From the NCBI GenBank assembly GCA_024278275.1, contig JAJRTN010000199.1, forward strand, positions 1-64,000: 64,000 nucleotides of DNA, read 5' to 3'. The notes below the pieces were generated by a model. That model was given only the letters and a program-made list of their open reading frames with translations. It did not search any database and was not told the DNA's origin. Positions 43,149-52,834 of this stretch are shown here, piece by piece. Position 1 is the first letter of the stretch. Every line of letters begins with the position of its first letter. This stretch comes from Candidatus Hydrogenedentota bacterium (GTDB taxonomy: Bacteria > Hydrogenedentota > Hydrogenedentia > Hydrogenedentales > JAJRTN01). A program made the position numbers and the translations under genes.

Positions 43149-43973
43149 TTACCTTATGGCGGGTTCCATCCAGGTGAACAGTTGGACCGCCAGACGAATG
43201 GCGATGAGCCACACGGCAACACCGAAAACACGCTTCAACAAAAGCCGATTCAGCTTGAGGGAAACCCGGCTTCCCATCGTGCCCCCCAGGATCGCGCCGA
43301 GCGCCAGTATTGCGCCGACCCGCCCATCCACCTGCCCGCTCATGGTGTGCCCCACCAGGCCCGACAGGGCCGTGGCTGCCACCATGACGGTCGAGGTGGC
43401 CACGGCGATCTCCATGGGTACGCCGCAAAACAACACCATAATGGGCAGCTTGATGATGCCGCCCGTGATGCCCAGCATCCCCGACAGAAAGCCGATGGCC
43501 GCGGTGGCCGTCAGGACCAGGGGAAGATTCACGCGGTAATCGTTGCCCTGAAAGTGGCGGTTCCATAACCACCATTTTCCCGTAACCATCGGTCTCTTTG
43601 AAGCAAGATTATTCCGCCGGAGCATAAGGGTACCGGCCACCATCAACACCAGCACGAGGACCGACTGAAGGAACGCCGCGGGGAGGTAACCCGCGAAGTA
43701 GCCGCCCACCAAGGCCATGAGGTCCGTGGGTGGATCGATGACCAGGGCGAGTTTCCAATCGACCTTCTTGTTCTTCCAGAAGGTGAATGTGGCGGAAAGC
43801 GAGGTGGCCAGGATCAGGATAAGACTGATCGATGGTGCTTCCCTGATGGAAAAACCGGCAAACAGAAGAATGGGCACATAGAGGATTCCGCCGCCCATGC
43901 CGATCATGGAAAAGACGGTCGATATGGCGAAGAACACCACGGCCAGGAGGACCAACTGTTCCATGCCGGTCAT
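43149..43973 (-). CDS. TauE/SafE family membrane exporter
   Basis: A 274-residue permease of the TSUP family with about eight helices and the two family repeats: GMGGGILYVPILL in the first half, GFLSGMLGITGGIIKLPIMV in the second. Relatives export sulfite, sulfoacetate or other small sulfur anions and some metal complexes. Its ATG overlaps the stop of a 25-codon CxxC micropeptide gene (ATGA), so it is translationally coupled to it; this supports the start at 43973 rather than the in-frame ATG 9 bp downstream. Confidence 0.87.
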   Translation of the reverse strand: MTGMEQLVLLAVVFFAISTVFSMIGMGGGILYVPILLFAGFSIREAPSISLILILATSLSATFTFWKNKKVDWKLALVIDPPTDLMALVGGYFAGYLPAAFLQSVLVLVLMVAGTLMLRRNNLASKRPMVTGKWWLWNRHFQGNDYRVNLPLVLTATAAIGFLSGMLGITGGIIKLPIMVLFCGVPMEIAVATSTVMVAATALSGLVGHTMSGQVDGRVGAILALGAILGGTMGSRVSLKLNRLLLKRVFGVAVWLIAIRLAVQLFTWMEPAIR

Positions 43974-44047
43974 GCTTCCCGCCCCGCCTTTCCCACGCAG
44001 GGGATACAGGCCATGCCGACTTCAACCAGTTCTTCGCGTGTGCTCAT
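43970..44047 (-). CDS. 25-residue CxxC micropeptide (CIPC)
   Basis: A short open frame with ATG at 44047 and AAGGAG 11 bp upstream. The 25-residue product starts MSTREELVEV, has Cys14-Ile-Pro-Cys17 and a basic tail. It is not a known family to me. It sits in the only long (90 bp) gap of the middle operon, between the RND pump and the TauE exporter, and its stop overlaps the exporter's start. A real translated peptide with a redox or metal-binding CxxC fits the operon; alternatively it only serves to couple translation. Confidence 0.55.
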   Translation of the reverse strand: MSTREELVEVGMACIPCVGKAGREA

Positions 44048-44137
44048 TTTTCAGAAATCTCCTTGTTTCTAGGGAGATACCCAGTTTCCCGAATGGCCCG
44101 TGAGGCAAATGTCTGCCGGACACGGTCCAGTCGGGAT

Positions 44138-47100
44138 TTACGTTTCGGTTGATTTGGACTGGGCGAAGGTGAACCACCGCCATCCCTTGGCGCACATGTT
44201 CCCGAGGCTGTCGAAGGAGGAGTACACCACGGGGACGACGATCATGGTCAGGAAGGTTCCGACCAGCAGGCCCGACGCGGCAACGATGCCCAGGGGGCTC
44301 ATGCGTTCGAGACCGACGGCCATTTCAAAGATGAGGGGAGACAATCCGACAATGGTCGAGACAGTCGTCATCAGGATGGGCCGCAGCCGGAACCGCACGG
44401 ACTGCAAGATGGCTTCATCGCGCGCCATGCCCTTGGCGCGCGCGTTGATAATGAAATCGAGCAGCAGAATGCTGTTGTTCACAATGGTGCCGCCCAGGAG
44501 AATCATGCCCATCATGGCGGGCTTGCACATGGGCTTGTCGAAGATAAGCAAGCCCCAGAACCCGCCGGCCACGGCCAGGGGTATGGCGGCCATGATGGTG
44601 AAGGGGTGCAGGAACGACTTGAACATGGCCACGAGGAGAATGAAAAGCAGCACGAAGCCGATCATCAGGGCGCGGCCCATTTCCCGCTGGCCGATCACCA
44701 TGTTCACGCCGTTACCCGCAACGCGGATGGTGTAGCCGGCGGGCGTCCTGATGTCGGCCAGTTTCTTTTTCACCATGGCGGTGACCTGGCCGATGGTGTA
44801 GCCTCGGTTCACCGCGGTGATGTCGATGGTGGGCAAGAGGTTTTCGCGGGTAATGAAGGGCTGGGTTTTATGGGGGTGTATTTGGGCCATGGCACGCAGG
44901 GGCACCTGCCCCAGGGGCGTGTTGATATAGACATCGCGCAGTTGAGACGGGTAGGTAATGTCGGCCCCGCGGTACCGTACCGTGACGGGGATGTCGAGAT
45001 AGCCGGTGAGGCGCATGGAAGTGGCCGAAATGCCCTTCACGGCGGTGCGCAGTTCCTTGGCCACGGCGGGGGGGGAGGCGTGGTAAAGTTCGGCCAGGTC
45101 GGGGTCGATCTTGATTCGGCAATCCCGCTTGTCAATGCGCCAGCTTCGGCGTACGTCCACGAGGCCCGGCGTTCCGTCGAGGTCCAGCAAGGTTTGGGCC
45201 GCCAGTTCGTCGAGTACGGCTGGATCCGGTCCGCTGATGATGATGTCGAGGGGAGCGCGGGTCGTGGACAGGGGGGTCGCGCCGTATTCGCTGACCGTGA
45301 AATCCTGCACACCTTCCATCTTGCGCAATTTCCCGCGCCAAAGGTCCTGGATCTTCCAGATGTCATCGGCGCGTTGGGTGCGGTCCAGCAGGGTGATCTT
45401 GATCTTGCCCGTTTGGGCCGTGGAGCCGCCTCCGCCGAAGCTGATCTCTCCCGGTTCCGAACCCACGGTGGAGGAGATGGTCAACACGCTTGGCGTTTCA
45501 TAAAGCATGGCCTCCACTTCTGAAAGGGTCCGTTCGACCTGATGGGGCGTGTAGTCGGAAGGCGTCTCGAAGACAAGATTCACAATCCCCGTATCCATGG
45601 GCGGCATCAACTCGCCGCCCAGGAGCGGCTTGACCTGCTTCATGGTGAATACGAGGAAAACCAGGGCGAGGAGAATCACGAGCCAGCGATGCTTGAGCGC
45701 GCCGCGCAACAGGGCCAGGTACACGCGGGACAGCCCTTCAACGCCCCGGTCGGTCACCGAGAAGACACGTTCGATGATATTGCGCCTTCGTTCTCCGTGC
45801 GCCAGCAGGCGCGACGCCATCAACGGCACGATGGTCAGCGCCGCCAAGAGCGAGGCCACCAGGGTCGCCGAGATCATGAGGTTCAGGGGCCGCATGACCT
45901 GTTGCGTGTAGCCGCCGGCGAACATGACCGGCACCAACACGATAACCGTGGTCAACATGCCCGCCGTGACCGCGAGCGTCACCTCTCGCGCCCCGGCGGA
46001 TGCGGCTCGAAGGGGGTTCTTGTTCGGATCTTCGCGGTAGTGCCGGTAGATGTTTTCCAGCACCACGATGGACGCATCGACGACCATGCCCACGGAAATG
46101 ATAAGGCCGGAGAGGGTCACCATATTCAGCGTATAGGGACTGAACCAGAGCACCACGAGACTGGCGAGGAAGGCCATGGGAATGCTGACGGACACCACCA
46201 CGGCGGCACGGATATCGGCCAGAAAGAGGAAGATAACCGCCACGGTGAGCAACACGGCCTGGACCAGGGACATGCGCATACCACTTACATTGAGGTCGAT
46301 AATCGGTTGCTGGTCGTCGGTGATGGTGAAGTCGATATCGGGGTATTCCGCCGTCAGAACGGGGAGTTTCGCTTTGATATTCCGAATGGCCGTAACCGTG
46401 GCGCCGCCCTCGGGACGCATGATATTCACGGCGATGGCGGGCCGGCCGTTGCCGTGGTATACGCTGCGCTGCTCCGCTTCGCCCAGGGAAACGTCCGCAA
46501 TGTCGCGCATACGCAGGACCGCCCCCTGGTCGAAGCGAATCGGCATGTTTCGGATCTCGTCGAGGTTGGCAAACTCGTTCGATACCTTGAGGAGATACTC
46601 CCGGTTCGGCGCGTAGATGGTTCCGGCCGGCGCCGAGACGTTCTGCCGCGCCAGCGCGGCCACCACGTCGTTCAGTGTAAGGTCGTTCGCGGCCAGGCTT
46701 TCCCGGGAGACCCGGACCTGGATTTCCGGCTTATGCGCCCCGAAGACATCGACATCCGCCACGCCGTCGACGTTGAGGAGCTCGTCCTCGATCTGGTTTT
46801 CCGCCAACAGCCGGATCTGGGACAGGTCTTTCGTTCCTCCCTCTTTCGGTGTGAGCGACAGGGTAAGCAGCGGGCGCGTGGCGTTGGCGATGCGGTAGAT
46901 ACGCGGTTCAAGAATCGCGGGCGGCAAGGCGGCCCGGATTCTGCCCACGGCGTTCTGAACATCCACCACCGCCTCGCCCAGGTTCTTGTAATAGTGGAAC
47001 TCCGCGTTGATGGAAGACACTTCGTCGCGGCTGGTGCTGGTAATGCGCTTCAGCCCGCCCAGGGTGTTCAATTCCTTCTCGATGATTTGGGTTACCTTGT

Positions 47101-47281
47101 CGGCCATGTCGTCGGCGTCGACGCCCGGCCACACCGTCACGACCACCACCTGCGGCGGTACCGTGTTGGGGAAGAGGTCCGTGGGGGTACGGAAGAAGGC
47201 GAACGCGCCCAGTGCGGCCACCAGGAGGCAGAACGCCACCACGGCATAGGGCGACTTAATGGAGAAATCGGAGAGATTCAT
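44138..47281 (-). CDS. RND-family efflux pump (inner-membrane subunit)
   Basis: A 1047-residue AcrB/CzcA-type proton antiporter. It shows the first membrane helix, the porter subdomain signatures (PGVDADDMADKVTQIIEKEL, ALPPAILEPRI) and the helix 4 proton-relay segment SVGMVVDASIVVLENIYRH. The helix 4 segment has one Asp where AcrB has a pair. TM10-11 pieces (GFVLLFILLVAMF, LLGGTIVNNSILLLDFIINAR) and full length indicate an intact pump. Whether it exports drugs (HAE1-like) or metal ions (HME-like) cannot be settled by eye. Its ATG overlaps the adaptor gene stop by 4 bp. Confidence 0.93.
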   Translation of the reverse strand: MNLSDFSIKSPYAVVAFCLLVAALGAFAFFRTPTDLFPNTVPPQVVVVTVWPGVDADDMADKVTQIIEKELNTLGGLKRITSTSRDEVSSINAEFHYYKNLGEAVVDVQNAVGRIRAALPPAILEPRIYRIANATRPLLTLSLTPKEGGTKDLSQIRLLAENQIEDELLNVDGVADVDVFGAHKPEIQVRVSRESLAANDLTLNDVVAALARQNVSAPAGTIYAPNREYLLKVSNEFANLDEIRNMPIRFDQGAVLRMRDIADVSLGEAEQRSVYHGNGRPAIAVNIMRPEGGATVTAIRNIKAKLPVLTAEYPDIDFTITDDQQPIIDLNVSGMRMSLVQAVLLTVAVIFLFLADIRAAVVVSVSIPMAFLASLVVLWFSPYTLNMVTLSGLIISVGMVVDASIVVLENIYRHYREDPNKNPLRAASAGAREVTLAVTAGMLTTVIVLVPVMFAGGYTQQVMRPLNLMISATLVASLLAALTIVPLMASRLLAHGERRRNIIERVFSVTDRGVEGLSRVYLALLRGALKHRWLVILLALVFLVFTMKQVKPLLGGELMPPMDTGIVNLVFETPSDYTPHQVERTLSEVEAMLYETPSVLTISSTVGSEPGEISFGGGGSTAQTGKIKITLLDRTQRADDIWKIQDLWRGKLRKMEGVQDFTVSEYGATPLSTTRAPLDIIISGPDPAVLDELAAQTLLDLDGTPGLVDVRRSWRIDKRDCRIKIDPDLAELYHASPPAVAKELRTAVKGISATSMRLTGYLDIPVTVRYRGADITYPSQLRDVYINTPLGQVPLRAMAQIHPHKTQPFITRENLLPTIDITAVNRGYTIGQVTAMVKKKLADIRTPAGYTIRVAGNGVNMVIGQREMGRALMIGFVLLFILLVAMFKSFLHPFTIMAAIPLAVAGGFWGLLIFDKPMCKPAMMGMILLGGTIVNNSILLLDFIINARAKGMARDEAILQSVRFRLRPILMTTVSTIVGLSPLIFEMAVGLERMSPLGIVAASGLLVGTFLTMIVVPVVYSSFDSLGNMCAKGWRWFTFAQSKSTET

Positions 47282-48474
47282 CGTGCTGCCTCCACCTTCA
47301 TTCCGTCCGCGAGCCGCGCCCAGCCGAGGAAGGAATGGACAACCACTTCTTCACCCGGTTTCACGCCTTCTACGGCGGCCTGCTCGCAGGCCGTGCCCAA
47401 CACCCTGATGGTGCGCGCTTCCAATTGACCGTCCTTCATCACGAAGACTTTCGGGTGTTCCAGGTTGCCTTCGATCAAGCTGGCCACGGGAATCAGCGGC
47501 ACGCTTTTACGGCGCTGGAAAACGACCGTGGCCGTCAGGTACTGCCCCAGGGTCAGCCCGGCGGCCTCCTCCTTCGAAAGCACCACCTCGGCCCGAAGCG
47601 TGCGGGCCCGGTTAAGCGCGGGATAGAGACGGGTGATTTTCGCGGTGCGCACCTCTCCGTCCACGGGGAAAGTGACCTCCAGACCCGCCTTGACCGCGGG
47701 CAGATCGGATTGGGGCACGTCAATGACCACCATCATCGTGCCGGCGTCCTGCACGACCAACAGCGCCTTGCCCGGCGCGGCCTGGTCGCCCGGGTCCACG
47801 TTGCGGGTTGTGATCACTCCGGCGAAAGGGCTTTTCAGTACGCAATAGCTTTGGGTGGTACACAACTCCTCGGCCTTGGCCTTGAGCGAGGCAATCTGCT
47901 GCACCAGGGCGTTGGTCTTTTCCCGGGCGGCCACCAGTTTACCCCGGGCCTCGTTCATCTTCTCCGCGGTGGCTTCTGCTTCGGCCCCCGGAATCGTGTC
48001 CTTCTCGGCCAGGGCTTTGTCCCGCTTGGTCTCCCGGTTCCAATACGCCAGGGAGTCCTGCAGCGAGGCCACCGTGCCCCGGCTGCCCTCCAAGTCCGCC
48101 TGGGCCTGTTTGATTTGGGCCTCCACGGACGTGATCTGCGCGTCCATTTGCCGATGGTCCAGCGTCATCAGGACCTGTCCGGCGGTCACCGTATCCCCTT
48201 CATCAACCAAGACCGTATCGACCGTGGCCGTGACGCGGGCGGTCACCTTGGCCTCTTTAACCGGTTCGATGATCGCCAGGTAATCATGGGATTCGGGCAG
48301 ATCACCCAGGTAGGCGGTTGCCGTATCCACGAGGGTCGAGGGCGCCACGTACTTGGGCGCACGAGCGAGGGATTGTTTTTTTCGTTGAATCAACGCCCTG
48401 CCGCCCGCCACCAGGGCGGCGGCCACGGCGATTACGATGAGGAACCGAAAGCCTTTAAGCAGTACGGGTTTCAT
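47278..48474 (-). CDS. RND periplasmic adaptor subunit (HlyD/MFP type)
   Basis: A 398-residue membrane fusion protein: N-terminal anchor (FLIVIAVAAALVAGG), a lipoyl half motif (VLVDEGDTVTAGQVLMTLD), a long coiled-coil hairpin (about 120-220), the second lipoyl half (SPFAGVITTRNVDPGDQ) and beta-barrel domains. It bridges the inner-membrane pump to the TolC-type channel. It overlaps both neighbours by ATGA, so the three-part pump is translated as a unit. Confidence 0.93.
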   Translation of the reverse strand: MKPVLLKGFRFLIVIAVAAALVAGGRALIQRKKQSLARAPKYVAPSTLVDTATAYLGDLPESHDYLAIIEPVKEAKVTARVTATVDTVLVDEGDTVTAGQVLMTLDHRQMDAQITSVEAQIKQAQADLEGSRGTVASLQDSLAYWNRETKRDKALAEKDTIPGAEAEATAEKMNEARGKLVAAREKTNALVQQIASLKAKAEELCTTQSYCVLKSPFAGVITTRNVDPGDQAAPGKALLVVQDAGTMMVVIDVPQSDLPAVKAGLEVTFPVDGEVRTAKITRLYPALNRARTLRAEVVLSKEEAAGLTLGQYLTATVVFQRRKSVPLIPVASLIEGNLEHPKVFVMKDGQLEARTIRVLGTACEQAAVEGVKPGEEVVVHSFLGWARLADGMKVEAAR

Positions 48475-50120
48475 GAGATGTCTCCTGTCTGTATTTCGCC
48501 CGTGGCCAGGCGCAGTTCAACAAGCGCCGTGTTGTAATCCCGGAGCGTTCGGTAGTAACTCGTTTGCGCGGTGAGAAGGGCCGATTGAGCGTCCAGGACA
48601 TCCACGATGGTCCCCTTGCCCAGGTTGTACTTCTCCCGTTCTATCCGAAGGCTCTCTTCCGCCTCGACGATACTCTTGTGGGTCACGTCAACCCGCTGGC
48701 GGGCCGTCTCTACGTTCAGCGAAGCCGTCTCCACGTCAAGCCGGATCTGGAGTTCGAGCTTCCGAAGCCGCTGCCGTGCCGCGTTCAGGCGGGCCTGTTC
48801 TTTCCGGACGGCCGCCCGAAGCGACCCTCCCTCGAAGATCGGAATCGTCACGGTGATCCCGATGCGGCCCACGTCTTCGAAGTCATCCGCGGAATCCACC
48901 CCCGCCCGCGAGACACGCGCCGTGGTGGCGCCCCCGGCGGTGCGGGTCAGGGTGAGGGCCCGGCCGTTCGGCAAAGGCCTCGTGTGGGAGATGGCCGTGC
49001 TCCCCGGCTGTCCGGCGGTCGTGGACAAGGAACTCGCCGGCGGGGTTACGGGGTCGCCCGAACCGTCAAAGCCCCAGCGCCCCCCGTAAGACGCCTCCAG
49101 CGAAACTTGAGGGTCCCGTGCTCCCCGGGCGATGTCCACGCGCCGGGCCTGCGCCTCCAGGGCCGCCTTGGCCGAGGCGTAGTCCTCGCGCCGCGCCAAC
49201 GCTTGCGTTACGTCGCCCGCCGTGGTGGCGCCATCGGGGAGGGCCAGGGTGCCACTCACGTCGAGGTTCGTGGTCGCCTCGGTGGAAATACCCAGGAGGT
49301 TGGCCAGCACGCGGTGTTGCACCGCCAAAGCGTTGCGCTCCCGGAGCAATTGCTGATCCACGTCCGCCAGGCGCACGTCGGTGCGGAGGAGATCCACCTT
49401 GGCCACCTTCTCCGCTTCCATGAGGCTGCGCACCCGGTCCACGTGGTCCTTGAGCACCTTGCGGGAAAACTCGAGCGATTCGATGACATGGCGCTGGGCC
49501 AGGATCCCGTAGTAAACACTGCTCACGTTGAAAACCAGTTCACGGCGGGTCCGCGCCAGGGTGTGCTCCGACGACTCGGCGAGCAACGCCGCCGCCCGGA
49601 TGCCGTTCACAATCTTGCCGCCCGCGTAAAGGGGGAGCCGGACCACCAGGTCCGCCGAGGCCAGGTCGTCGGTGAAATAGCTGGTACCGCCGGGCCTGGA
49701 GGGCGCCACCACCCGCTGATCGTCCTGGTAGTGGAAGATGCCGCCCGAGAGGCCCACCTTCGGCCACCGTTCACCGGCCCGCTCGCGCCGTTCCGCCAGC
49801 GCCGCCTCCCGGTCCCACGTCGTGGCCGCCACTTCCGGGTTGTGCTTCAACGCGAGGTCGATGCACGACACCAGTCCAAGGCCCGGTCCCGCCGTGGAAA
49901 CCGCCGGGGCCTCGCTTGTTTCGGGGACCGTGGTGGTGGGCCTGGCGGCGGGCGCCACGGGGGGCGCCGTGTTCTCGTAGGGGTCCGTGGGATGCACCGT
50001 GGCGCAGCCCGCCACGATCACGGCGGTTATCAGGACCGCCACCAGGCCACGTGAGCGCCGCCACACCCGGACCTTCCCGGGGTCGTATCCACATTGCCGT
50101 ATACTCATGAAGTTTCTCAT
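48471..50120 (-). CDS. TolC-family outer-membrane lipoprotein
   Basis: The outer-membrane channel of the tripartite pump, 549 residues. It has a lipobox VAGC after a hydrophobic segment, a Pro/Thr-rich linker, then the two TolC repeats of long helices and beta strands (LALKHNPEVAATTWDREAAL; DVETASLNVETARQRVDVTHKSI; YNLGKGTIVDVLDAQSALLTAQTSYY). A lipid anchor is known in OprM-like members. The start is uncertain between ATG 50120 and ATG 50108. It follows the permease gene by 20 bp. Confidence 0.88.
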   Translation of the reverse strand: MRNFMSIRQCGYDPGKVRVWRRSRGLVAVLITAVIVAGCATVHPTDPYENTAPPVAPAARPTTTVPETSEAPAVSTAGPGLGLVSCIDLALKHNPEVAATTWDREAALAERRERAGERWPKVGLSGGIFHYQDDQRVVAPSRPGGTSYFTDDLASADLVVRLPLYAGGKIVNGIRAAALLAESSEHTLARTRRELVFNVSSVYYGILAQRHVIESLEFSRKVLKDHVDRVRSLMEAEKVAKVDLLRTDVRLADVDQQLLRERNALAVQHRVLANLLGISTEATTNLDVSGTLALPDGATTAGDVTQALARREDYASAKAALEAQARRVDIARGARDPQVSLEASYGGRWGFDGSGDPVTPPASSLSTTAGQPGSTAISHTRPLPNGRALTLTRTAGGATTARVSRAGVDSADDFEDVGRIGITVTIPIFEGGSLRAAVRKEQARLNAARQRLRKLELQIRLDVETASLNVETARQRVDVTHKSIVEAEESLRIEREKYNLGKGTIVDVLDAQSALLTAQTSYYRTLRDYNTALVELRLATGEIQTGDIS

Positions 50121-50140
50121 CGCTCCCGTTGTTTTCTTGA

Positions 50141-51442
50141 CTAGGACACCAGCACGCCGAAGAACATGCCGGTCAGGGTTGCCATGACGATGACGAGGGA
50201 TACGAACACGACCATCTTCTTCGTGCCGAGCACGCTGCGAATGACCAGCATGTTCGGCAGGCTCAAGGCCGGTCCCGCCAGCAGGAGCGCCAGCGCGGGT
50301 CCCTGTCCCATTCCGTTCCCCAGCAGTCCCTGGAGGATGGGCACCTCCGTCAACGTGGCGAAATACATGAAGGCCCCCACGACCGACGCGAAGAGATTTG
50401 CCCAGAGGGAATTGCCGCCCACCAGTGACGCCACCCACCGGGAAGGAATAAGGCCCTCGTGGCCCGGTCGCCCGAGGAGCAACCCGGCAACCAGAACGCC
50501 GAGGAAAAGCAGGGGAAGAATCTGCCTGGCGAAGGTCCACGTGGAGGAGAACCACGACTGCATCCCCTCGTTCTCCGTGTTCGTGACCAGGGCCAGGCCC
50601 AACACACCCAGGCTGAAGGGCAGCAGGGGTTCATGCGGCGTCGCCAGCGCGGCCACCCCGGCCACGGTCGCGACCGCCACGATCTTCCACCAGCGCACGC
50701 CGAACCAGGCCACCATCGTCAGCCCCAGCCCGGCGGCGGACACGGCGGTGAGAACCCATTTCCAGGCATAGAGGAAATGCCATACGCCGGCGGTGTCATC
50801 CGTTTTCCCCCAGTTCGCGAACACGAGGACGCAGACCATGGTGGCGAAATAGAGCCCGTTTTGCCAGAGCGGACGTTCCACTTCCGCCTCGGGAAGCACG
50901 GCCGCAGCCGCGGCTTTCTCCCTTTCCTCCCTGCGGAAGATGAGGTGCATTAGCAGACCGATGACCACACTGAAGACCACGGCTCCCACGGCGCGGGCAA
51001 TGCCGAGCCGCAGGCCCAGGACCCGCGCGGTGAGAACAATGGCCAGCACGTTGATGGCCGGCCCGGAATAGAGGAACGCCGTGGCCGGACCCAGTCCCGC
51101 GCCCATGCGGTAGATGCCGGCGAAGAGCGGCAGGACCGTGCAGGAGCAAACGGCAAGGATCGTGCCCGACACGGAGGCCACGCCATAAGCCAGCACCTTC
51201 GGCGCGTTCGCCCCCAGGTACCGCATGACCGACGCCTGGCTGATGAAAACCGCGATGGCCCCCGCGATGAAGAAAGCCGGAACCAGGCACAGCAGCACGT
51301 GTTCCCGGGCATACCACTTCACCAGGTGAAGCGATTCCATGACCGCGTTATCGAAGCGCGCCCAACCAACGGGGAGATAAAGGCACACGAGAAAGGCGGC
51401 GGCAATCCACGCCAACGGTTTCCACTCTTTCGACCAGTCCAC
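50141..51442 (-). CDS. DUF318/ArsP-type permease
   Basis: A 433-residue inner-membrane permease of the ArsP/UPF0718 group, with about ten helices in two repeats. The first repeat contains Cys99-Ser-Cys101 in AVCSCTVLPLFAGIYRMGAG and the second LSLPNMLVIRSVLG. ArsP members export trivalent organoarsenicals; relatives handle other soft metals. The cysteine pair is a plausible metal(loid) site. The GTG at 51442 is chosen because AAGGAG is 6 bp upstream. A predicted ArsR operator lies 12 bp before the start. Confidence 0.88.
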   Translation of the reverse strand: MDWSKEWKPLAWIAAAFLVCLYLPVGWARFDNAVMESLHLVKWYAREHVLLCLVPAFFIAGAIAVFISQASVMRYLGANAPKVLAYGVASVSGTILAVCSCTVLPLFAGIYRMGAGLGPATAFLYSGPAINVLAIVLTARVLGLRLGIARAVGAVVFSVVIGLLMHLIFRREEREKAAAAAVLPEAEVERPLWQNGLYFATMVCVLVFANWGKTDDTAGVWHFLYAWKWVLTAVSAAGLGLTMVAWFGVRWWKIVAVATVAGVAALATPHEPLLPFSLGVLGLALVTNTENEGMQSWFSSTWTFARQILPLLFLGVLVAGLLLGRPGHEGLIPSRWVASLVGGNSLWANLFASVVGAFMYFATLTEVPILQGLLGNGMGQGPALALLLAGPALSLPNMLVIRSVLGTKKMVVFVSLVIVMATLTGMFFGVLVS

Positions 51443-51454
51443 GCTCAACTCCTT

Positions 51455-51474
51455 GGCTTATTGACCAATCAGGC
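51455..51474 (-). promoter_or_regulatory. Second predicted ArsR operator, upstream of the permease
   Basis: The palindrome TTGG-N8-CCAA within CTGATTGGT-N5-AGCCAA. It matches the site at 51840-51859 at 15 of 20 positions, but in the opposite orientation relative to the window. It lies between arsR and the permease and touches the permease ribosome site, so binding there could also affect translation or a second promoter. Confidence 0.6.
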
Positions 51475-51507
51475 ACCTTTTCGGGCAAAAAAAAGACCGG
51501 GGGGACC

Positions 51508-51825
51508 TCACACCACCGCGGCATTCGCCTCGACGTTTGACTGGACCACCGCCTCGATACAACTGAAGATACGGGTGATACATTTCACCCGAAGCCGGTA
51601 GTAGACCTTCAGGCCCCGTTTCTCGTCCTCAAGTATCCCCGCCTCCTTAAGCACGCTCAAGTGCTTGGAGACAGTGGATTTATCGGCCCCAATCAAATCG
51701 GTTAATTCACATACGCACCGTTCACCCTCGGCAAGCTGGTCGATGATGAACAAACGTGAGGGGTGTGCCATGGCTTTCACAATCTTCGCCCGTGCCTGGT
51801 ATCGGTTTCGCGTCTTCGCATCCAT
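51508..51825 (-). CDS. ArsR-family metal(loid)-type repressor
   Basis: A 105-residue winged-helix repressor. The recognition helix is ADKSTVSKHLSVLKEAGI. The helix before it contains Cys37-Val-Cys39 (ERCVCEL), the type 1 metal or arsenite site of ArsR/CadC-like proteins, and Cys82 and Cys89 near the C-terminus could complete a thiolate site. The ATG at 51825 is set by AAAGGAG 6 bp upstream. It is the first gene of the minus-strand operon and probably represses its own promoter until a thiol-binding metal or metalloid displaces it. Confidence 0.93.
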   Translation of the reverse strand: MDAKTRNRYQARAKIVKAMAHPSRLFIIDQLAEGERCVCELTDLIGADKSTVSKHLSVLKEAGILEDEKRGLKVYYRLRVKCITRIFSCIEAVVQSNVEANAAVV

Positions 51826-51839
51826 GAGCATCTCCTTTG

Positions 51840-51877
51840 CTGATTGGTATTATAGCCAACAAGATCGATCCTGTCAA
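51840..51877 (-). promoter_or_regulatory. Consensus promoter with ArsR operator over the -10
   Basis: Read on the minus strand: TTGACA (51872-51877), a 17-bp spacer, TATAAT (51849-51854). Both hexamers are perfect. The palindrome TTGG-N8-CCAA at 51844-51859, extended as CTGATTGGT-N5-AGCCAA at 51840-51859, covers the -10, so a bound repressor would block polymerase. A near-copy lies before the permease gene. Confidence 0.82.
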
Positions 51878-52240: not shown

Positions 52241-52324
52241 GGAGGAGTAGCATAATTGGTAATGCAGCGGTCTTGAAAACCGCCGCCTTCGGGCTTGCAG
52301 GTTCGAGTCCTGTCTCCTCCGCCA
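52241..52324 (+). tRNA. tRNA-Ser (anticodon UGA)
   Basis: An 84-base cloverleaf: acceptor GGAGGAG/CTCCTCC, D arm GCAT/ATGC, and anticodon arm GCGGT-CTTGAAA-ACCGC giving UGA. The long variable arm has a GCC-TTCG-GGC hairpin, the T arm is GCAGG-TTCGAGT-CCTGT, the discriminator is G, and the CCA is encoded. Anticodon, long variable arm and G discriminator all indicate Ser. The D arm, with four base pairs and an AATTGGTA loop, looks more like a class I tRNA. Confidence 0.88.
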
Positions 52325-52524: not shown

Positions 52525-52834
52525 GAGTCCCTTCCCAGTGAAGTTCTGTCAAATGATCACGAATACGTGTTTGCCCCCCCCTTCTTTCCGTCATTCCCGC
52601 GAAAGCGGGAATCCACGGGAAAGGGCAAGAAGTCGCTCGTATCATGGAGCCCCGATTTCGCGGGGATGACGGTGGGTTGGGGTGGTAGGGACAAGCCCCG
52701 CTTGTCCGCTGCCCGAAGCGGGCCGTGCATCACCGTGAAACGCCCCGTTGGCGCGGGACACGCGCCGCCCACGGTCATGCCGGGGCAACCACGTTTTCAT
52801 GACCATTTGTGCAACACTTCAGGGGTGGGGACTA
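52525..52834. mobile_element. MITE-like element with ~40-bp terminal inverted repeats (copy 2)
   Basis: Left end AGTCCCTTCCCAGTGAAGTT and right end (opposite strand) TAGTCCCCACCCCTGAAGTG continue into matching CAAATG-TCA-GAA-ACGTG blocks. The interior carries the widespread hairpin ATTCCCGCG-AAA-GCGGGAATCC. It also holds the GGACAAGC-CCC-GCTTGTCC module shared with the tandem array at 1-430. No coding region. The right end supplies the TAG stop codon of the adjacent thioredoxin gene. Confidence 0.8.

Follow-up and report, generated by a model that had tools for sequence, protein, structure and literature searches.

A predicted second ArsR operator, often preceded by a T-tract, as a probable transcriptional roadblock between arsR and a permease gene

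Results

Genes and promoter of the locus

The window, i.e., the whole 64-kb stretch of DNA analysed here, carries on its minus strand a gene for an ArsR-type repressor followed by a permease gene (Table 1). The arsR promoter is a perfect sigma-70 promoter (TTGACA-17-TATAAT) and was the sole promoter-like site within 50-53 kb. The permease probably starts at GTG 51442, as its relatives begin with M-N/D-W. No clear terminator was seen in the gap between the two genes in the window. On the 3' side of the permease gene, co-directional TolC-like, HlyD/RND adaptor, RND pump and TauE/SafE-like genes follow with small gaps or overlaps; together with the permease gene they perhaps form one export operon (43149-51442). 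A gene for tRNA-Ser (TGA) lies upstream of arsR (52241-52324), and an Rfam search near the locus found a tRNA alone. At 52590-52670, an inverted GC-rich stretch around CCCGCGAAAGCGGGAATCC resembles a dispersed intergenic repeat.

Table 1 Features of the arsR-permease locus in the window.
Feature	Position	Strand	Remark
-35 element TTGACA, arsR promoter	51872..51877	-	12/12 consensus match with 17-nt spacer
-10 element TATAAT, arsR promoter, inside operator site 1	51849..51854	-	12/12 sigma-70 match
Operator site 1 (autoregulation; predicted)	51840..51859	.	CTGATTGGTATTATAGCCAA on + strand
arsR, ArsR/SmtB-family repressor	51508..51831	-	107 aa; 105 aa from better-spaced ATG 51825
T8 tract between arsR and permease	51487..51494	- (transcribed-sense strand)	sequence
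Operator site 2 (proposed roadblock)	51453..51472	.	CTGATTGGTCAATAAGCCAA on minus strand
Permease Shine-Dalgarno AAGGAG	51449..51454	-	sequence
ArsP_1-family permease	50141..51442	-	PF03773, E = 2.4e-72

The ArsR protein contains a winged helix-turn-helix domain (PF01022, 59.7 bits against a cut-off of 22, E = 2.4e-16) and scored 89.1 bits against the metalloregulator model NF033788, the cut-off of which is 55. A cysteine metal(loid) site was found as a CVCE motif at residues 39-42. Cys84 and Cys91 were invariant in all 49 ArsR relatives, and Cys39 and Cys41 were present in 47 and 40 of the 49, respectively; judging from these conserved cysteines, the ligand is probably a thiol-reactive metal or metalloid. 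In the group formed by this protein and its relatives (L012-L090), the C-terminal Cys84/Cys91 accompany the CxC pair in the third helix, and the four residues possibly constitute a four-thiol site of the group's own. The helix-turn-helix residues S52, T53, S55, H57 and others were also invariant among the 49 relatives, which is consistent with a single operator type. For the permease, assignments as an SO_0444 Cu/Zn efflux protein (116.2 bits) and as an SaoE efflux permease (104.7 bits) were rejected, the NCBIfam equivalog cut-offs being 300 and 325, respectively; its sequence places it in the broad ArsP_1 family only.

Two palindromes flanking arsR

A preliminary description of the window had reported two 20-bp palindromes as ArsR operators. 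Both are present, and 15 of the 20 bases agree when they are oriented alike. Site 1 lies at 51840-51859 over the -10 of the arsR promoter, exactly as described, and holds the TATAAT of the 12/12 promoter. Site 2 is in the inverted orientation just 5' of the permease gene, also as described, but it occupies 51453-51472 and not 51455-51474, a difference of two bases, and its distance from the likely GTG 51442 is 10 nt instead of the 12 bp given. It lies between arsR and the permease gene, has no -10 inside, and overlaps the permease Shine-Dalgarno by two bases. The two sites are approximately 390 bp apart.

The preliminary description had suggested a search of the genome for the motif as a check. 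The bare core TTGG-N8-CCAA is common: it occurred twice in the window against 1.5 expected, and 54 times in the 5.35-Mb genome, where the reversed control occurred 85 times. The core alone was rejected as evidence, since its frequency is not above chance in either. A pair of such cores at most 600 bp apart was found in 1 of 300 shuffled windows. The fuller pattern CTGATTGGT-N5-AGCCAA matched perfectly at only two positions of the genome, both of them at this locus, and the next best match had two mismatches; this pattern was derived from the two sites themselves and hence is not independent. A stronger and independent test than these pattern counts is the ranking by a position weight matrix built from the homologous loci with the window excluded: within the 64 kb, site 1 obtained the highest score (21.9) and site 2 the next (15.3), and the third-ranked position reached 6.3. 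The proposal that both sites are ArsR operators is well supported by conservation across phyla and by the overlap with the -10; considering also this ranking, the recurrence among loci and the invariant helix-turn-helix residues, it is very probably correct.

Recurrence of the two-site layout

A homology search with the permease yielded 80 loci from many phyla, 64 of which (65 including the window) had a co-oriented arsR homologue just upstream. Of 63 loci, 51 had the pattern ATTTGG-N8-CCAAAT (at least 9 of 12 positions) before arsR, and 34 of 52 had it in the arsR-permease gap, whereas dinucleotide shuffles gave 7.3 and 4.6, respectively; the loci come mostly from metagenome assemblies and partly share ancestry, and the thresholds for calling sites were chosen by eye before the shuffles were run. 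Sequence logos showed TATTTGG-N8-CCAAATA to be common to the first and second sites. The -10 letters of the promoter were present in the logo of the first site and gone from that of the second, and T-tract columns appeared before the second. When a -10 inside the palindrome was required, a promoter score of at least 9 was reached by 38 of 50 first sites and by 0 of 35 second sites. Judging from these alignments, the second site differs in kind from the first: it is a predicted operator that polymerase coming from arsR would have to cross and that covers no promoter.

A T-tract coupled to the second site

The preliminary description overlooked a T-tract that precedes the second site. A run of T6 or longer ended 8-11 nt before TTGG at 28 of the 35 second sites, while in 1000 dinucleotide shuffles the count averaged 1.4 and never exceeded 5; the tract was first noticed in the very loci counted here, and independent checks come from the searches without reference to genes and from the divergent loci, both described below. 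The commonest form in relatives was T6-T8 ending 9-10 nt before TTGG, on the side of the incoming polymerase; the cultured Desulfopila sp. IMCC35008 (L079) is one relative with the usual spacing. The T-tract lay 0 to 186 nt behind the stop codon of arsR, and the second site 8 to 39 nt ahead of the permease start, and intergenic positions outside the two elements showed almost no conservation. Since these flanking distances vary while the spacing from T-tract to TTGG stays fixed, the T-tract and the operator form one unit. The T-tract is also one-sided: T-runs were observed upstream of 29 of the 35 second sites, A-runs downstream of none of them, and T-runs upstream of none of the 50 first sites. 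Beside a symmetric operator, such one-sidedness is more readily explained by the direction in which polymerase travels than by a bend in the DNA. In the divergent arsR loci (L051, L053, L062 and L089), the operator lies over the -10 and the T-tract module is absent.

The window itself is an outlier of this layout, as its T8 ends 18 nt before TTGG, 8 nt farther than in relatives. Among the other Hydrogenedentota loci with a second site (n = 18), nine have a T6 or longer run, always at 9-10 nt.

We also searched for the module without reference to genes. The pattern T6-N9/10-TTGG-N8-CCAA was found at 13 distinct places in 68 genomes of the window's phylum, of which 7 were directly behind an arsR homologue. 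In the 24 genomes with homologous loci, it occurred at 16 distinct places and its reversed control at 2. With a slightly tighter pattern, the examined places behind arsR numbered approximately 15 out of 30 in one further phylum (395 genomes) and 3 out of 14 in another (289 genomes), a repeat element in genome G180 being counted once. Over the three phyla, approximately 25 of 57 distinct matches lay just behind an arsR homologue. The loci of these searches partly overlap those of the permease search.

In place of the permease gene, the T-tract/operator unit behind arsR precedes a DGC-domain gene at one locus (L096) and a rhodanese/TauE unit at another (L138); other permeases and pump types were also found downstream of the gene-blind matches. 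This variety suggests that the unit goes with arsR rather than with one pump. A locus of Chloroflexota (L056) has a different operator, ATATTC-N8-GAATAT, at the second site in its arsR-permease gap, with a T7 tract in the same geometry (8 nt). This variant hints that the module may not be bound to one operator sequence; when sought in 251 Chloroflexota genomes, it was present in this locus alone. Two further candidates (L070 and L083) were rejected, as T-tracts were present but a convincing shared operator pair was lacking.

Discussion

Proposed mechanism

From comparative evidence, namely the sequence, conservation, spacing, the missing promoter, and the strand and side bias observed here, we infer ArsR binding, polymerase stalling and U-tract-assisted release. 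We consider it likely that ArsR at site 1 represses the promoter of its own gene and acts as a roadblock to polymerase at site 2 before the permease gene, with the U-tract aiding release. Both palindromes would be operators of the ArsR encoded between them. At site 1, bound ArsR would cover the -10 and repress its own promoter, the only one seen for the arsR-permease unit; the operator overlaps a promoter element there and likewise in relatives, and this overlap together with the conservation across phyla lends good support to the autoregulation claimed in the preliminary description. Since ArsR has to be made, some transcription would always leak. At site 2, an operator in the transcribed path of a gap in which no promoter was found, bound ArsR would block polymerase between arsR and the permease gene, so that basal transcripts would yield ArsR but not the pump. 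The separate control of downstream genes suggested earlier is thus retained in the form of a roadblock: site 2 does not lie over a promoter, and none of the 35 homologous second sites scored as one. Ligand binding would free both sites and so place the permease under double control.

In most relatives, where T6-T8 ends 9-10 nt before TTGG, the transcript of the halted polymerase would be paired to the template by a weak rU:dA hybrid, and release would be favoured without need of a hairpin. The spacing of 8 nt between the T-tract and the ATTTGG arm fits a roadblock: LacI-blocked polymerase reaches approximately 5 bp before the operator edge (PMC4132739), and RNA polymerase I halts in a T-rich stretch approximately 15 bp before its roadblock protein (PMC12366685). 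Hao et al. also reported that sequence upstream of a roadblock could influence termination (PMC4132739). With RNA polymerase I, a roadblock and a T-rich stretch without a hairpin did not release the RNA (PMC12366685). Because that enzyme needed a hairpin and upstream hairpins are found here in few loci only, Mfd or Rho may be required for release; stalled polymerase is removed by Mfd in E. coli (PMC6237814, PMC4132739, PMC10310618). In addition, small ArsR dimers may be weak roadblocks, and four loci with a stable hairpin just before the T-tract (L013, L014, L015 and L047) could be ordinary terminators. For the window, the predicted roadblock is better supported than the U-tract step, which is doubtful there: with its T-tract 8 nt too far, release may be less efficient or may rely on Mfd or Rho.

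Other readings of the second site

Site 2 has the same operator as the arsR promoter, and in relatives the T-tract sits roughly at the -35 position relative to a -10 in the palindrome; it could accordingly be the operator of a separate permease promoter, arsR and the pump being two independently repressed units. This is unlikely, as the promoter scores of second sites fell below even those of shuffled sequence while most first sites scored highly, the arsR promoter is the only promoter-like site around the locus, and the divergent loci, which truly need a second promoter, retain the -10. Two matched sites approximately 390 bp apart would also suit a loop in which both operators are bound jointly and arsR is looped out for stronger promoter repression, an option raised in the preliminary description. 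The distances between sites, from 361 to 595 bp, were not phased with the DNA helix (for a 10.5-bp turn, the mean resultant was 0.004, compared with approximately 0.18 at random), and a loop leaves both the fixed T-tract spacing and its one-sidedness unexplained; we regard its chances as remote.

The T-tract and palindrome might alternatively act in RNA, either as a hairpin that controls how the permease is translated or how stable the mRNA is, or as an intrinsic terminator behind arsR. The transcribed palindrome could indeed fold, and in a few relatives a hairpin immediately precedes the T-tract. Pairing between the arms of second sites was, however, no higher than in column shuffles, as at the DNA-only first site, and the arms retain the letters of the promoter operator. 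A hairpin of the palindrome would come after the U-tract and not before it, hairpins ahead of the T-tract are no general feature (mean z -0.56), and the T-tract spacing is tied to the palindrome and not to the start codon. An action in RNA is hence improbable. Finally, a palindrome alone is no proof of function, and short T/A tracts bend DNA, so that site 2 might be extra ArsR binding capacity or a passive duplicate with the T-tract as a bent-DNA aid to binding. This is very unlikely, since a bending aid to a symmetric operator predicts A-runs downstream and T-runs at site 1, neither of which occurred (0/35 and 0/50, respectively). The predicted roadblock at site 2 is compared below with known systems.

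Relation to known systems

ArsR is listed among roadblock proteins (PMC10310618), and its roadblocking is known from engineered second sites (PMC3918153; PMC10310618). In synthetic reporters, a second ArsR site downstream of arsR lowered the background (Stocker et al. 2003, as cited in PMC3918153). These circuits resemble the layout described here in that arsR stands under its own repressed promoter with a second ArsR site before the output gene, and background without ligand is lower, an effect that is predicted for the window. They differ in being engineered with the ArsR and operator of E. coli, and no T-tract module is described for them (PMC3918153); the present layout is natural and conserved across phyla.

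Natural roadblocking between genes of an operon is known from YtgR and trpRBA of Chlamydia trachomatis, where upstream transcripts end at the operator (PMC6504234). Unlike ArsR, YtgR is an unrelated iron-dependent repressor that also represses an alternative intergenic promoter, and no fixed T-tract was reported. C.Kpn2I, LacI, CcpA and CodY are bacterial repressors that block elongation, and Kpn2I is autoregulated (PMC6237814, PMC4132739, PMC10310618), but the block in these cases is either close to the beginning of the regulated unit or part of a test construct, and a conserved T-tract spacing is undescribed. RNA polymerase I terminators (Reb1/Nsi1/TTF1; PMC12366685) share the DNA-bound protein and the T-rich stop at a fixed distance; they are eukaryotic, constitutive, dependent on an upstream RNA hairpin for fast release, and not ligand-controlled.

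In the openly accessible literature, a prior description elsewhere being possible, we found no report of a natural conserved two-site ArsR layout, nor, within the same scope, of the T-tract spacing or of T-tract-assisted roadblock termination in bacteria. By this search, ArsR roadblocking in synthetic constructs and natural intergenic roadblocking by YtgR are known, and the conserved T-tract/operator module and the two-site layout appear to be new.

Significance

A broader proposal, which could equally prove right or wrong, is that the module is a natural, widespread, ligand-controlled bacterial terminator with a DNA-bound repressor in place of an RNA hairpin, ArsR halting the polymerase at a fixed spacing while it holds a U-tract hybrid. 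Without ligand, the transcript would be released, as in termination by RNA polymerase I. The fixed spacing of the T-tract in relatives makes the effect of pre-roadblock sequence on polymerase release testable by a few base changes, and the T-tract/operator module provides a searchable genome signature for ligand-controlled termination. If the natural second operator is a roadblock, the sensor would keep being made while the pump stays off, the same trick that engineers built by hand for arsenic biosensors.
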